26,024 nucleotides of DNA, taken from the NCBI GenBank assembly GCA_947259235.1, contig CAMYLL010000001.1, forward strand, positions 1 to 26,024, given 5' to 3'. Origin of the DNA: an uncultured Pseudodesulfovibrio sp. GTDB lineage: Bacteria; Desulfobacterota; Desulfovibrionia; Desulfovibrionales; Desulfovibrionaceae. The notes beneath the pieces were generated by a model. That model did not search any database, had not been told where the DNA came from, and saw only the letters and a list, made by a program, of their open reading frames with translations. The translations under genes and the position numbers were made by a program. This document shows, one piece after another, positions 1,091 to 23,880 of this stretch (position 1 is its first letter; each line of letters starts with the position of its first letter).

Positions 1091-2515
1091 ATGAGCGAAG
1101 CATCGTTTGAAAATATTTGCATATTTCATATAATGGACGGTCTGCGTGACGGGCTGTCCCATTTTTCGCTGCCCAGCCGCGTCGCGCTCATCTATGCCGC
1201 CACCCCGGACGCGCCGCCGCGCATCTGCGACCCGCAGGGGCTGCTGGTCGGACACGAACCCAAGCTGCGCGACTACTATCTTTATTCCAACGCCTGGCGC
1301 AACGGCTGCGCGGCCGACGGGCAGATGGTGTTTATCGAATCGGACGAGTCCAAGCTGGACCTGGCGGGAACCATCGCCTTGGGCGCCCGCTCCCAGTCCG
1401 TCAGCTACCAGATGTGGTTCACGGACGAGCACCCGGGGATGTGCTCCGTGGGACCGACCAAACGCTGGCTCGAATACGCCGCAGGCCTTCTCTCCCAGAA
1501 TTTCGCCACCAGGGAGGTCATGAACCTCGACACGGCCGGGTTCGTGCTCCAGCACTGCGCCACCCATGCCGTGCGCGACTACATTGTGGACGAGCGCAGC
1601 CGTCTGGGATGGCTGGACACCCATGTCAGGATTTATCCCTTCCTCGATGCGGTGCTCGGCGTGTCCGGGACCCAGGAGGAGGGCGCGTGGCCCAGGGGGC
1701 GCATGGTGGTGGTGGAGCCGAACCAGCTGGATCAGGTGCGCTTCATCTGCCGGTTTCCGGCCACGGAACAGCCCATGATGGCCGACTGCAAGCATGTGCG
1801 CAAGCTGCTCCAGGCCGTGGAGGAATCGGGCCGGGTGCTCGTTTCCGACGGCATCAGGGTGCTCGGCATCGCCATCGGCCCCATGCCCGGCGCCTATCTG
1901 GCGGCCCAGTTCAGCGGAACCCACGGCTTCCTGTGGCTCAAGGACGAGCTGGTCTGCAGCTTCTTCGACGGCGGGTTCCACTCCTCCAACATGCGGGCCA
2001 ATCTCGTCCAGCTGGAGGAACAGCTCCTTGAGACGGACATGAGCATGGAGGACCAGCACACCCTGCTCCAGATAGCCTCCCTCATGGTCAACAGGGTGCG
2101 TGACCGCAAGCACGGATGCACCCTGGTCATCGACACCGGCAAGGAGCGCCTGCGCATGTCCGGCCAGCACTTCGAGCGCCCGCTGGACCTCATGGACAGC
2201 GGCCAGCTCAAGCTCGCCTGCTCCCTGGCCAAGCTCGACGGCGCGGTCCACCTCGGGCGCGACCTCAAGCTCCACGGGTTCGCCTGTCTCATGGACGGCC
2301 GCTCCGTGCCCGGAGAGAACAGGGCGCGCGGGGCGCGGTTCAACTCCGCCCTGCGCTTCACTGCGGAGCACGATGACATCCTGGTTGTGGTCGTCTCCTC
2401 CGACAGGCCGGTCTCCATCATCAAGAGCGGCGTGGAGCTGACGGCCCTGTGCCATTTCCGCATCGTGGCGGGCCTGTCCCGGCCGCCGCTGCTGGCCGAA
2501 TGGATCATGCATTGA
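1091..2515 (+). CDS. Diadenylate-cyclase (DisA_N/DAC)-like protein with sensor N-terminus
   Basis: This is a soluble protein of 474 residues. The C-terminal ~150 residues (about 335-455) match the DAC fold that makes c-di-AMP from two ATP. The features are the HGCTLVID strand (341-348), LDGAVHLGRDLKLHGFACLM with the DGA motif at 383-385, and the terminal VVVVSSDRPVSIIKSG segment. The second canonical motif, usually GTRHRAA, reads GARFNSA (Arg416, Phe417, Asn418), so His and the second Arg of RHR are replaced. Activity is therefore uncertain. Residues 1-330 belong to no family I can name with confidence; DAC-fused N-terminal sensor domains (the DACNx group) have been described and are the first comparison to make. 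There is no signal peptide and no transmembrane segment. The start has GGAGA 5 bases upstream. The next two genes follow on the same strand at 37 and 63 bp. Confidence 0.72.
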   Translation: MSEASFENICIFHIMDGLRDGLSHFSLPSRVALIYAATPDAPPRICDPQGLLVGHEPKLRDYYLYSNAWRNGCAADGQMVFIESDESKLDLAGTIALGARSQSVSYQMWFTDEHPGMCSVGPTKRWLEYAAGLLSQNFATREVMNLDTAGFVLQHCATHAVRDYIVDERSRLGWLDTHVRIYPFLDAVLGVSGTQEEGAWPRGRMVVVEPNQLDQVRFICRFPATEQPMMADCKHVRKLLQAVEESGRVLVSDGIRVLGIAIGPMPGAYLAAQFSGTHGFLWLKDELVCSFFDGGFHSSNMRANLVQLEEQLLETDMSMEDQHTLLQIASLMVNRVRDRKHGCTLVIDTGKERLRMSGQHFERPLDLMDSGQLKLACSLAKLDGAVHLGRDLKLHGFACLMDGRSVPGENRARGARFNSALRFTAEHDDILVVVVSSDRPVSIIKSGVELTALCHFRIVAGLSRPPLLAEWIMH

Positions 2516-2552: not shown

Positions 2553-2777
2553 GTGACCGGCCAGTGGATGACGGACCCGCTCTTCTGGCTGGCGGCGCTG
2601 CCGGCCCTGGCCGCTTCAGGCCTGCTTTTCCAGATGATTCTCAGCCTTTTCACCTGTTGCGGAACCTTTCGCCTGCGGGGACGCACCGTGCGCCTCACGT
2701 GGTGGATGATCCCGGTCACCGGGGGCGTCTGCGGTCTGTTGTGGACGGTTGCGGTCGGCTATGCGCTCCTTGGCTGA
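2553..2777 (+). CDS. Small two-helix membrane protein
   Basis: A GTG-started reading frame of 74 residues. Two hydrophobic segments (about 8-34 and 50-72) are separated by a short basic loop (RLRGRTVRLTW, 40-50), so a helical hairpin in the inner membrane is likely. GGAGG at 2535-2539 precedes the GTG by 13 bases, which is long. An in-frame ATG at 2568 lacks a ribosome site. It lies 37 bp after the DAC-like gene and 63 bp before the degenerate HD-GYP gene, all on one strand, which suggests co-transcription. I recognise no family. A membrane anchor or partner for either neighbour is a guess. Reality as a gene rests on frame, hydrophobicity and position. Confidence 0.55.
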   Translation: MTGQWMTDPLFWLAALPALAASGLLFQMILSLFTCCGTFRLRGRTVRLTWWMIPVTGGVCGLLWTVAVGYALLG

Positions 2778-2840: not shown

Positions 2841-3884
2841 ATGGGCTTCACGAATATGGCGAGCAAGCAAAACGTCCTGGGCATCGGCAAGACCGAGAGC
2901 GGCGAAGGCCCTAACATCGAGGAATACAACCAGATAGACCCGTGTATTCTGGAATGTTTCCCCAAGACCCGCTTTCCTGTGGACCTCTATCACTGGCGCG
3001 AGGAAATACAGACCCTCACTCCGGTCTATCGCGCCGGGCGCGAGGTGGACAGACGGCTGCGCACCACGGTTATGGGGCTGAGCGAACAGGGCGTGCTCTT
3101 CTTTACCCGCAACCAGATCAAGGATTATACGGCCTGCGTTGCCTGCAATCTGAACGCGGCCCTGGACGATCCCAACCTGACCTGGGACGAGAAGGCCGGG
3201 GTCTTCATCGGCGAGCTGGGCCGCAGGCAGGACGCCTTCTTCAGTCACCCCATGGCCCAGGAGCTCGATGATCTGGACAAGGCCCTGGCCTCCTTGTGCG
3301 TCTATCTGGTGGAGGACAGCCGCCGCATGAACAAGGTCGTCCACGACGTGCATTGCTGTCTGGCCCCGGAACGTCGGCGGATCAACGCCTCGCTTCTGGC
3401 CCTGGCCGTGTACATGGAGATGCACCGGGGCGACATCACCCTGGAGCGGCTCGAAACCGTGGCCCTGGGCTTTTTTCTCTACGATATCGGGATGACCCGT
3501 GTCTCGCCCATGATGATCGCCCGGCCGCAGCAGCTCACGCCCAGCGAACAGCGGACCATGCGCGAGCATCCCAAGATGGGCCTTGAGATTCTGAGCAGGC
3601 TCAACCTGACCCGGCCGGAAATCTCGGAGCCGACCATCCAGCACCACGAGCGCCTCAACGGCAGCGGCTATCCCAACAAGCTCGCGGGGGACCGCATCGG
3701 GCACTTCGGCCGCATAGCGGCCGTGGCCGACTCCTACTGCGCCATGGTCACGGACAAGCCGGCGCGCAAGGGGCTGGCCCCCATCGCCGCCGCCGCCGAG
3801 CTGGTGACCAACGACCGTCAATATGATCAGGCCGTCTGCCGCACCCTGGTCCGGTTCCTCCAGACAGTCCCTTCCTCTCTCTAA
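2841..3884 (+). CDS. Degenerate HD-GYP domain protein, probably not catalytic
   Basis: The protein has 347 residues. The N-terminal ~140 residues align by eye with the same region of the HD-GYP protein at 6563-7555 (FPVDLYHWREE against FPEVLGDFSVY), so the two are distant paralogues. The C-terminal half keeps HD-GYP landmarks: EHPKMG (His243), QHHERLNGSGYP (His268-His269, GYP at 276-278) and AVADSY (Asp297). The HD pair itself reads Tyr214-Asp215 (LYDIGM in place of LHDVGK), and the first metal His of the family appears to be Asn182 or absent. HD-GYP enzymes hydrolyse c-di-GMP at a bi- or trinuclear iron site; losing these ligands should remove activity. A role as a c-di-GMP receptor or scaffold is possible. 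The start is uncertain: ATG 2841 and ATG 2856 both lack a strong ribosome site. No membrane segment is seen. Confidence 0.8.
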   Translation: MGFTNMASKQNVLGIGKTESGEGPNIEEYNQIDPCILECFPKTRFPVDLYHWREEIQTLTPVYRAGREVDRRLRTTVMGLSEQGVLFFTRNQIKDYTACVACNLNAALDDPNLTWDEKAGVFIGELGRRQDAFFSHPMAQELDDLDKALASLCVYLVEDSRRMNKVVHDVHCCLAPERRRINASLLALAVYMEMHRGDITLERLETVALGFFLYDIGMTRVSPMMIARPQQLTPSEQRTMREHPKMGLEILSRLNLTRPEISEPTIQHHERLNGSGYPNKLAGDRIGHFGRIAAVADSYCAMVTDKPARKGLAPIAAAAELVTNDRQYDQAVCRTLVRFLQTVPSSL

Positions 3885-5365: not shown

Positions 5366-6424
5366 TTATGACGACTTTCTGTGGCTGATGACCCGGTTGC
5401 GCCCGCGACTCTTGGCGTCATACATGGCCGTGTCTGCCGCGCTCAGGAGGGTTCCCGCGTCCCAGCCCGGCTGCCACTGGGCCACGCCGATGGACACGGT
5501 GAACTGCACCGGATGGTCGTCCAGGCGGCCCTGGGTGCGGACGCGGAAGTCGTAGCGCTCAACGTCCAGGCGAATGGCCTCCGCCTTGAGCTCGGCCTCA
5601 TGAAGGCTCATGTTCTTGGCCACCACCACCAGCTCCTCGCCGCCATAGCGGGCAGCAAAGCCGTGGAACTGGATGGCGTGGGCGTTGATGATCCGGGCCA
5701 GGGCGTGCAGCACGTCGTCGCCCGCCTGGTGTCCGTAGGTGTCGTTGACCCGTTTGAAGTGGTCCACGTCGATCATCATCAGGCAGAGTGCTCCGCGATT
5801 GTCCTTGCGCAGGCCCAGGACCGAGGCCTGGACATAGGCGTCCAGGGCGCGACGGTTGTGCAGCTCCGTGAGCAGGGGGTCGAAGTTGGCCGAGTGCTCC
5901 AGCATCCTGGCGCGCTCCTCCAGCTCCCTGGCCTCCTCCTTGAACTCGATGATGAGTTCCTGAAACATCTCGCGCACCTTGGACACGATGAACGAGCGGT
6001 TTTTGCCGGACCGGATGACCCCTACGGTGTGCTCCTTGAAGGCGTCGAGCTTGCGGTTCTGGCGTTCGCCGTGGCCCTGCATGGAGTCGATGATGGCGTC
6101 CATCTCGTTGACCAGCTGGACGGCCGACCGCTTCTCCTGGGTCAGGGCGTCCTCCAGCTCCAGGGCGCCGATGGTCTGCATGATGTACATGTCGAGCATG
6201 GCGGTGACCTCGTCGAGGCGGGCCGGTGACAGATCGCCTTTCGACATCTCGTCGAGGACCTCGCGCTGTATCTCCGCCTTTTTCTCGTCCGAGTAAATGG
6301 AAAGGCGCGTCAGCAGGTTGCGCACGAAGAGCACCACGGCGATCCAGTCCGGGTCGTCGGCCACGCCGAAGCGCGACAGGACCGTCGCCAATTCATCCAT
6401 GGTTCTGCATGTCTTTTTCTTCAT
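5366..6424 (-). CDS. Diguanylate cyclase (GGDEF) with helical N-terminal domain
   Basis: This 352-residue cytoplasmic protein would make c-di-GMP from two GTP. Residues 1-175 are nearly all helical and charged, with a likely coiled coil at about 155-178, and contain no named sensor. The GGDEF domain (about 180-350) has NFDPLLTELHNRRAL, the metal ligand Asp219 in MIDVDHFKRVND, GHQAGDDVL, the signature GGEEL at 261-265 and SIGVAQ. The active-site residues look complete. The inhibitory I-site RxxD, expected five residues before GGEEL, reads Gln252 and Gly255, so product inhibition by that route is unlikely. The ribosome site AGGGAAAGG lies just upstream. It lies in a minus-strand run between an HD-GYP phosphodiesterase and the effector-less periplasmic sensor. 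Confidence 0.93.
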   Translation of the reverse strand: MKKKTCRTMDELATVLSRFGVADDPDWIAVVLFVRNLLTRLSIYSDEKKAEIQREVLDEMSKGDLSPARLDEVTAMLDMYIMQTIGALELEDALTQEKRSAVQLVNEMDAIIDSMQGHGERQNRKLDAFKEHTVGVIRSGKNRSFIVSKVREMFQELIIEFKEEARELEERARMLEHSANFDPLLTELHNRRALDAYVQASVLGLRKDNRGALCLMMIDVDHFKRVNDTYGHQAGDDVLHALARIINAHAIQFHGFAARYGGEELVVVAKNMSLHEAELKAEAIRLDVERYDFRVRTQGRLDDHPVQFTVSIGVAQWQPGWDAGTLLSAADTAMYDAKSRGRNRVISHRKSS

Positions 6425-6562: not shown

Positions 6563-7555
6563 TCAGATCATGTCGGCGCCGCTGAGCACCGCCACGAACC
6601 GTTTGAAGATGGTCATGTCCACCTCTTCGCGCATCTCGTGGCGGATGAGGGTCAGGGCCTCGTATGGGGGCATGGCCTCGGCATAGGGCCGGGCCGTGGT
6701 CAGGGCGTCGTAGATGTCCGCCATGGAGATGATCCGCACGGGCAGGGGAATGGTGTCGCCCTTGAGCCCGGCGGGATAGCCCGTGCCGTCCAGCTTCTCG
6801 TGGTGAAAGAGGATGCAGTTGATGGTATTCTGGGTCATTGGCAGGTGGGCGCACATGGACACGCCGTGGACCGGGTGTTCCTTGATCACCTCGCGCTCGG
6901 ACTGCGTCAGCGAGCCGCGCTTGTTGAGGATGCGCCGGGGAACCTTGGCCTTGCCCACGTCATGGAGCAGCGCCCCCAGGCCGCATTCGAAGGTCTCCGT
7001 GTCGTTCATCCCGCTGGCCTGGAAGACGGCCACGGAGTAGATGAACACGTGCATGCAGTGGGTATAGGTCTTGTAGTCGTGGGAGATGAAGGGCGCCACT
7101 GCGGCCAGGGATTTCTCCGCAGCCAGGAACCGTATGGAATTCTTGACTATTTCGGCAACGCGGCTGAAGTGCTTGGCGCGGATGGCGCTTGGCAGCTTGT
7201 GGTCGAAGATGTCCTGCATGACCACGTTGGACGCCTCGTAGAAGACCTGGGAGCGGACGTCGATGGGCAGGGTTTCATCCAGGAGGATGGTGCCGAGGTT
7301 GCGCTCGACGTACAGCTCGTACAGGGCCTTTTCCGAGCTCTGGACATACACTTCCTTGACGCCGTTGGCGTGCAGGACCTGACGGTGTCTGGCGGTGAAT
7401 TTCTGGCCCGATTTGGTGTAGAGGACGAAGTCCCCTCCCTGCCAGAGGTAGACGGAAAAATCCCCCAGGACTTCCGGAAAAAGCATGACCGGGGACACGG
7501 GGAAGTAGGATACCGGGCGTGCGGCGTGGGTACTGATTCCCATTTGGGGCAACAT
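6563..7555 (-). CDS. HD-GYP cyclic-di-GMP phosphodiesterase
   Basis: This 330-residue cytoplasmic protein has a DUF3391-like N-terminal region (about 17-125), then a complete HD-GYP domain. Metal-binding and signature residues are all present: His166 (THCMHV), His198-Asp199 (LLHDVGK), Lys202, His227 (KEHPVHG), His251-His252 (FHHEKLDGTGYP, GYP at 259-261) and Asp280 (MADIYDAL). The family hydrolyses c-di-GMP to pGpG or GMP. Its paralogue at 2841-3884 has lost the HD pair, so the two can be compared directly. It lies 65 bp after the glycosyltransferase gene and 138 bp before the GGDEF gene, so synthesis and breakdown of c-di-GMP are encoded next to each other. The start is uncertain (ATG 7555 or the in-frame ATG four codons later); neither has a clear ribosome site. 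Confidence 0.93.
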   Translation of the reverse strand: MLPQMGISTHAARPVSYFPVSPVMLFPEVLGDFSVYLWQGGDFVLYTKSGQKFTARHRQVLHANGVKEVYVQSSEKALYELYVERNLGTILLDETLPIDVRSQVFYEASNVVMQDIFDHKLPSAIRAKHFSRVAEIVKNSIRFLAAEKSLAAVAPFISHDYKTYTHCMHVFIYSVAVFQASGMNDTETFECGLGALLHDVGKAKVPRRILNKRGSLTQSEREVIKEHPVHGVSMCAHLPMTQNTINCILFHHEKLDGTGYPAGLKGDTIPLPVRIISMADIYDALTTARPYAEAMPPYEALTLIRHEMREEVDMTIFKRFVAVLSGADMI

Positions 7556-22644: not shown

Positions 22645-23880
22645 ATGCCCGACAACCAGTTCACGTGCGAAGACAGCGCCGTCCTGACGATTCTCAAGAC
22701 GAGCGACGAGGTCAACCAGCTCAAGGATGTCGACACCATTCTTGACAAGATTCTCTATGAATCCAGGCGATTCGCCAATGCCGATGCGGGTTCGATCTTC
22801 CTCGTGGACAAGGGGAACCTGATCTTCAGCTACGTGCAAAACGAAACCCTGTTCAAGGGGGAGTCGTCCAACGCCGCCCTGTATCACAACTTTGCCATTC
22901 CCATCAGCGAACAGTCCATCGTCGGCTATGCGGCCAAGACCCGCAAGGCACTGGTCATCGACGATGCCTACGAGCTGGACCCCACCCTGCCCTTTGCCTT
23001 CAACAAGTCCTTTGACGAGAAGTCCGGCTACCGGACAACGAGCATGCTGACCATCCCGCTCATTGCCCAGGAGAGCCGGCTGGTGGGGGTCATGCAGCTG
23101 ATCAACGCCCGCAACGACATGGGCAGGGTCGGTCCCTTCAGCGCCGACGCCCAGACCTATATCCCGCTCTTTTGCAACAATGCCTCGGTGGCCATCGAGC
23201 GCGGCATCATGAACCGCGAGCTGATCCTACGCATGATGCAGATGGCCGAGCTGCGCGACCCCACGGAGACCGGGGCCCACGTCCAGCGCGTGGGGGCCTA
23301 CTGCGCCGAGATATATGGAACATGGGCCGCCCGCAGGAAGCACTCCGCCAAGGAGATAAAACGGGCGCGGGACAACCTGCGCCTCGCCGCCATGCTCCAC
23401 GACGTGGGCAAGGTCGGCATCTCCGACAACATCCTCAAGAAACCGGGCAAGCTCACCGACGAGGAGTTTGACGCCATCAAGTGGCACACCATCAACGGGG
23501 CCAGGCTCTTCAAGAACCAGACCTCTGACCTGGACGCCATGAGCAGCGACATCGCCCTGTGCCACCACGAGAAATGGGCAGGCGGCGGCTATCCCGGAAA
23601 GGTCGTCCCGGGCCTGTGGTCGCCGGACGCCCGCATGGGAGAATCCCTGAGCGGTGAGGATATCCCGCTGGCGGCCCGCATCTGCGCCGTGGCGGACGTG
23701 TACGACGCCCTGTCATCCCCTCGGTCCTACAAGGACCCCTTTCCCGACGAAAAATGCCTGGCTATTCTGGAAAAGGACGCGGGAACCCTCTTCGATCCCG
23801 AGGTTGTCGAGATCTTCATCGAAATCTTCGACGTCATCAAGGCGATCCGGGACAAGTTCAAGGAAACAGTGAAAATATGA
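22645..23880 (+). CDS. GAF-HD-GYP cyclic-di-GMP phosphodiesterase
   Basis: This 411-residue cytoplasmic protein has an N-terminal GAF domain (about 25-187: DTILDKILYESRRFANADAGSIFLVD, IPLIAQESRLVGVMQLINA) and an HD-GYP domain (about 190-405). The key residues are complete: His212 (ETGAHVQRVG), His252-Asp253 (MLHDVGKVG), His281 (KWHTINGA), His307-His308 (CHHEKWAGGGYP, GYP at 315-317) and Asp351 (VADVYDAL). The domain carries an unusual insertion of about 18 residues after GYP (320-338) and has Ala-Gly in place of the usual Asp-Gly before GYP. The start follows AGAGGTGA. Its stop codon overlaps the next start (ATGA), so the two products are made together. A promoter in 22580-22640 is likely but could not be pinned down. 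Confidence 0.94.
   Translation: MPDNQFTCEDSAVLTILKTSDEVNQLKDVDTILDKILYESRRFANADAGSIFLVDKGNLIFSYVQNETLFKGESSNAALYHNFAIPISEQSIVGYAAKTRKALVIDDAYELDPTLPFAFNKSFDEKSGYRTTSMLTIPLIAQESRLVGVMQLINARNDMGRVGPFSADAQTYIPLFCNNASVAIERGIMNRELILRMMQMAELRDPTETGAHVQRVGAYCAEIYGTWAARRKHSAKEIKRARDNLRLAAMLHDVGKVGISDNILKKPGKLTDEEFDAIKWHTINGARLFKNQTSDLDAMSSDIALCHHEKWAGGGYPGKVVPGLWSPDARMGESLSGEDIPLAARICAVADVYDALSSPRSYKDPFPDEKCLAILEKDAGTLFDPEVVEIFIEIFDVIKAIRDKFKETVKI

Follow-up and report, generated by a model that had tools for sequence, protein, structure and literature searches.

A core Pseudodesulfovibrio protein with RFN in place of RHR belongs to a distinct multi-phylum clade of diadenylate cyclase-type proteins

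The window analyzed here is the whole of a 26,024-nucleotide stretch from an uncultured Pseudodesulfovibrio sp. (assembly GCA_947259235.1, contig CAMYLL010000001.1, positions 1 to 26,024), and our subject is a forward-strand gene near its start (1091..2515) encoding a diadenylate cyclase (DAC)-type protein of 474 aa. Pfam finds three domains in this window protein, all above cut-off, in the order DACND-DACNH-DAC. The DACND domain (residues 5-174; 1103..1612, +; E 1.9e-69) is a probable ligand sensor with weak GAF-like fold matches, and is followed by DACNH (residues 182-289; 1634..1957, +; E 7.7e-31), inside which a sub-threshold match to DACNV was also seen (residues 184-250). A preliminary description of the window had left this N-terminal region unassigned, which the DACND and DACNH matches now correct. 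The C-terminal domain (residues 333-447; 2087..2431, +) matches DAC (PF02457) with an E-value of 1.4e-12 and 47.7 bits against a cut-off of 27 bits, and its fold is that of a DAC. The earlier assignment to DAC was therefore right, and neither a missing DisA_N match nor a different fold was encountered.

According to the available portion of PMC7288161, DGA and RHR are the usual recognition marks of DAC enzymes; canonical contacts are made by a ribose-binding Asp, phosphate-binding Arg and Ser and a metal-binding Glu, with a Ser-Glu-Glu stretch supplying phosphate and metal contacts; and in CdaA the main chain of a Leu, usually followed by Pro, contacts adenine. The window protein carries DGA at residues 383-385 (2237..2245, +) and reads RFN at residues 416-418 (2336..2344, +) where RHR is canonical, both as first described.

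This replacement is conserved among homologues. Counting the query and the best 120 of 1720 database matches, 100 sequences read RFN and 21 read RYN, and R[FY]N was present in all 42 loci gathered from the genus, order and phylum, window included (41 distinct sequences, as L034 and L094 are one locus). A further search started from a Dyadobacter relative. This protein has DACNG as its N-terminal domain, and those of its best matches that carry names are mostly Bacteroidota. A pattern gave R[FY]N in 115 of its best 120 matches of 1773 (88 RYN and 27 RFN), and the remaining five show it in the printed sequence. Pooling both sets of best 120 with the loci and seven plasmid proteins yielded 286 distinct sequences, a set in which distant members are under-sampled and one gene may be counted with two start choices. 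R[FY]N occurs in 285 of these and RLN in one, which answers the question raised in the preliminary description of whether RFN or RYN is conserved.

In a tree of 63 DAC domains, a branch with 100/99 support set 34 of them apart from the rest, although the tool warned of long branches meeting. These 34 rows comprise 33 with R[FY]N and one with RLN, from Phycisphaera; P0121 and the Dyadobacter plasmid protein among them are near-copies. Within the tree, DACND proteins form one group (96/95), and DACNG and plasmid proteins form another (90/67). The window protein, a signaling protein of three domains, is thus a member of a distinct, multi-phylum DAC clade, named here the R[FY]N or DACNH clade. Because the clade's DAC profiles match those of DACNV DACs better (E 1.4e-14) than those of canonical DACs (E 1.5e-9), loss of the His within a DACNV-like lineage is suggested.

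Canonical DACs from the same phylum were compared as 68 stretches, 29 from the best-scoring loci returned and 39 picked from the matches listed; the places listed score at least ~80 bits, and low-scoring, divergent DACs are under-represented. Two stretches fall outside the 66 that were aligned: L147, a pattern mis-hit that reads GSRHIA and so also has RH, and L148, which is in the wrong frame or not a DAC. RH was found in all 66, with Arg as the third residue in 49, so the earlier statement that known DACs need the whole of RHR was too strict. The change that counts is therefore His to Phe or Tyr, because canonical DACs keep the His and vary at the third residue, where Arg is non-obligatory in this sample. 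Among 17 DACNV places, the 14 DACs that were read (L175-L188) all keep the His; L189 is below the cut-off and shows no DAC, and L190 and L191 are DACNH proteins. In a low-scoring set, L169, L170 and L174 keep RH and the sequences of L171 and L172 are incomplete. L173, a low-scoring DAC outside the clade (47.2 bits), lacks RH where it should stand, showing that His has also been lost in a DAC other than those of the DACNH clade. The L173 domain lies in a 587-aa frame ending in the locus and is the sole DAC match in that genome of the phylum. By eye, GSRKETA stands in it in place of the expected GTRHRAA, another way of losing the RH motif.

Other active-site positions are fixed across the 286 sequences. 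With roles taken from the same partial source, ribose D383, phosphate R416 and S436, and metal D438 (Asp for Glu) are identical in all of them, as is G384, and A385 is kept in 231. D402, G403, R413, G414 and N418 do not vary either. The (V/I)SEE motif is not matched, its place being taken by S-x-D in all 286 (Ser436-Ser437-Asp438 for Ser-Glu-Glu in the window protein; 2396..2404, +); VSEE or ISEE is found in 60 of the 66 canonical DACs, so the motif is not absolute there either. Asp402-Gly403 (2294..2299, +; 286/286) replaces the Pro and next residue that follow the adenine-contacting Leu, with Asp402 coming right after the residue mapped to that Leu of CdaA (mapping from the available portion of PMC7288161). 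The equivalent position is also Asp in five of the 66 RH-keeping DACs of the phylum (LDA four times, LDT once), which weakens the case for reading Asp402 as a sign that guanine is used. Judged from the alignment, the site is altered in content yet seems to be under selection.

DACNH, when modeled alone, appears to be a DAC-like (pseudo-DAC) fold without a recognizable site. Within it lies Val-Arg-Lys 236-238 (1796..1804, +), of which R237 and K238 are invariant in all 286 distinct sequences. The fold claim rests on VIA-align, which re-ranks Foldseek's own candidates and matched DACNH to DAC domains, because Foldseek by itself gave weak DAC matches (best E 1.2, at rank 4). An attempt to prove by sequence that DACNH derives from DAC failed, as comparisons of three DACNH with five DAC profiles by hhalign were not significant (E 0.036-0.87), and a separate sequence comparison likewise fell short of significance. 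A search of a viral structure library returned no match at E < 0.001.

The window gene is a core chromosomal gene, with DACND occurring once per genome in all 36 genomes of the genus; a related locus is found in Pseudodesulfovibrio pelocollis. More widely, DACNH was detected in 58 of the 150 genomes scanned in the order, in 18 of 297 in the phylum and in none of 14 control genomes. A dead remnant or sequencing artefact was ruled out by the presence of R[FY]N in 285 of 286 sequences together with the gene's core status in the genus. The same genome encodes a canonical CdaA elsewhere (GTRHRA, VSEE), and the 10 DACNH-holding genomes that were covered by both the DACNH and the DAC scans of the phylum each have two or three DAC matches. 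Because of these two findings, cyclic di-AMP (c-di-AMP) is probably present in DACNH-holding genomes.

Neighbors of the DAC gene, among those listed by a home-made gene caller, are not conserved across families. Directly downstream is an open reading frame (ORF) of 74 aa with a GTG start (2553..2777, +), hydrophobic and of membrane type, for which Pfam gave no match; homologues occupy the same place in 11 of the 42 loci, window included (10 distinct), within the genus. It is followed by a gene for an HD-GYP-type protein (2841..3884, +; Pfam HD_5, 84.3 bits), which stands beside the DAC gene in eight of the 42 loci, window included (seven distinct), all in the same genus, and not beside it in three other loci of the genus (L066, L067 and L095). 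In all eight homologues beside a DAC gene, YD replaces HD (YDIG or YDLG for HDIG) and GYP is kept, so that by its motifs a further second-messenger domain of this gene cluster is altered too. An ORF preceding the DAC gene (100-912, +) combines a weakly glyoxalase-like N-terminus with a HAD phosphatase-like C-terminus (KdsC-like by eye), and in L092 a shorter form with only the HAD part lies upstream of the DAC gene. Genes of cyclic di-GMP type are abundant in the window (2841-23880), including a GGDEF gene (5366-6424, -), an HD-GYP-type gene (6563-7555, -) and an HD-GYP-type gene with GAF (22645-23880, +).

Plasmid-borne DACs of the clade came from Priestia (three), Dyadobacter, Citrobacter, Gluconobacter and Phycisphaera (RLN) (L035, L036, L037 and L165-L168), and five of the seven records are annotated simply as diadenylate cyclase. 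The Citrobacter and Gluconobacter proteins, whose motifs read SRYNS and ARYNS, respectively, reach 803.8 and 712.2 bits with the DS2_3 antiphage model NF053872, which has an equivalog cut-off of 630 bits. Their DAC genes adjoin annotated patatin-like phospholipase and nucleotidyltransferase genes, and a third plasmid DAC of the clade, from Priestia, lies beside a SMODS gene. Of these three nucleotidyltransferases, the two that were tested (Citrobacter and Priestia, with Gluconobacter outside the test) match SMODS; near the DAC genes of the remaining four plasmid loci, no nucleotidyltransferase is annotated. The available portion of PMC13092281 describes DS-2 as a phospholipase, a cGAS and a DAC, reports that mutation of either of two predicted catalytic DAC residues eliminated defence, and places 15 of 30 homologues with a cyclic oligonucleotide-based antiphage signaling system (CBASS). 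The window protein is not DS2_3, because it scores 64.5 bits against NF053872 (residues 186-444), no SMODS match was found in its own genome (~83% complete), and PADLOC gave no match. A mobile or defence-island gene was also ruled out: neither the window protein nor a Priestia relative matched a phage collection, PADLOC was negative and the neighbors vary across families.

Together, these observations are best read as describing a variant, probably ligand-gated protein of the DAC clade. The reading we prefer, at a probability of about 0.5, is a ligand-sensing three-domain protein whose C-terminal DAC is predicted still to make a cyclic (di)nucleotide. DACND would bind a ligand, and DACNH would relay the signal or stand in for the second subunit with which a canonical DAC dimerizes. 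The DAC would still bind a nucleoside triphosphate and divalent metal through the kept D383, R416, S436 and D438, and once activated would make a cyclic (di)nucleotide, most simply c-di-AMP, with the Phe or Tyr and the Asn of R[FY]N taking over or altering the phosphate contacts normally made by Thr-Arg-His. Of the two options in the preliminary description, a variant enzyme and a receptor built from a dead cyclase, an active cyclase is favored here over a receptor, without being settled, and several points weigh on the other side. The Arg-His of the GxRHRxA motif is absent from the clade (no His in 286 sequences), and the residue before R[FY]N, canonically Thr, is Ala in 274 and Ser in 12. 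His loss is not trivial, because changing RHR to AAA in Mycobacterium tuberculosis DisA abolished both ATP binding and cyclase activity (PMC3328451, available portion). A conserved pocket is expected of a receptor too, and a search by sequence found no clade member with a solved structure. R[FY]N in DS2_3 is known here from the two plasmid proteins above the cut-off and not from the DS-2 protein of PMC13092281, and the DS-2 DAC mutants do not separate binding from catalysis.

The missing His in all 286 sequences suits a dead cyclase acting as a receptor, in which the DAC would bind c-di-AMP from CdaA, or another nucleotide, and signal via DACNH and DACND to a partner such as the downstream HD-GYP-like protein. 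The canonical CdaA in the same genome, the probable presence of c-di-AMP and the YD-for-HD change in the HD-GYP-type neighbor all lend this idea weight, but that neighbor is confined to the seven distinct same-genus loci and is not beside the DAC gene in L066, L067 and L095, and the fixed metal-site acid D438 and ribose D383 would be needless in a pure receptor; we keep it as a tentative but substantial alternative. It is quite improbable that the clade is instead a variant enzyme with another substrate or product (GTP, a mixed or linear dinucleotide, or other nucleotidyl transfer) working through the altered pocket of Asp402-Gly403, R[FY]N and S-x-D. Several phosphate-side and base-side positions are indeed altered together and all fixed, and Asp402 directly follows the equivalent of the CdaA residue with the adenine-contacting main chain, yet the same Asp in five of 66 RH-keeping DACs means that it is no marker of new base specificity by itself. 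Least probable would be an ordinary anti-phage, CBASS-linked cyclase that is chromosomal by chance. Such a link is drawn by the three of seven plasmid loci with an annotated nucleotidyltransferase beside the DAC gene (both of those tested being SMODS) and by the NF053872 match over residues 186-444, but the low score against the 630-bit cut-off, the negative PADLOC result, the lack of a SMODS match in the ~83% complete genome and the four plasmid loci without a nucleotidyltransferase all speak against it, and one copy in each of 36 genus genomes is unlike a patchy defence gene.

Canonical DACs act as homodimers, in which the partner comes from a second subunit. A more speculative proposal, and a doubtful one, is that R[FY]N-clade proteins including DS2_3 are built-in asymmetric DAC pairs, in which a pseudo-DAC DACNH with its fixed Arg-Lys 237-238 faces the rewired DAC. 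Chemistry might then occur in one half only, or phosphate contacts from DACNH might replace the lost His, with a ligand-gated product that may not be c-di-AMP. A hidden pseudo-DAC in DACNH would recast this 'probable sensor domain' as a dimer partner.

The domain architecture itself is already catalogued in Pfam; of interest are the fixed use of R[FY]N, its occurrence in DS2_3 as well, and the resemblance of DACNH to a DAC. Searches of literature titles and abstracts found none that deals with DACs carrying R[FY]N or describes DACNH as DAC-like in fold, nor any paper with RYN or RFN together with 'diadenylate cyclase'. 'All DACs in a row' (Galperin 2023), reportedly a survey of DACs, was outside their coverage. 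R[FY]N marks out a clade spanning several phyla, among whose members are proteins of a family with ties to anti-phage defence. How both DS-2 and a core regulator of the genus work depends on whether proteins of this kind make c-di-AMP or another messenger, or only bind one.

Among known systems, the DACND-DACNH-DAC architecture of Pfam (PF21749, PF21750 and PF02457) has the same three domains in the same order as the window protein. Compared with CdaA and DisA, the window protein has extra DACND and DACNH domains and changes RHR to RFN, the preceding Thr to Ala, SEE to SSD and LPL to MDG. DACNV-DAC proteins have the DAC profile nearest to that of the R[FY]N clade, and a weak DACNV match lies inside the window DACNH; unlike the clade, they keep the His. 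DS2_3, as read in the two plasmid proteins above its cut-off, resembles the window protein in having DACNH ahead of a DAC-type domain, in the R[FY]N there and in the fixed D, R, N, S and D, but has DACNG rather than DACND at its N-terminus and ~90 extra residues behind the DAC. The Citrobacter DS2_3 protein has DGT, and Pfam gives no DAC match for it at E 0.01. DS2_3 genes lie beside phospholipase and nucleotidyltransferase genes, whereas the neighbors in the window are of HAD phosphatase-like and HD-GYP type.
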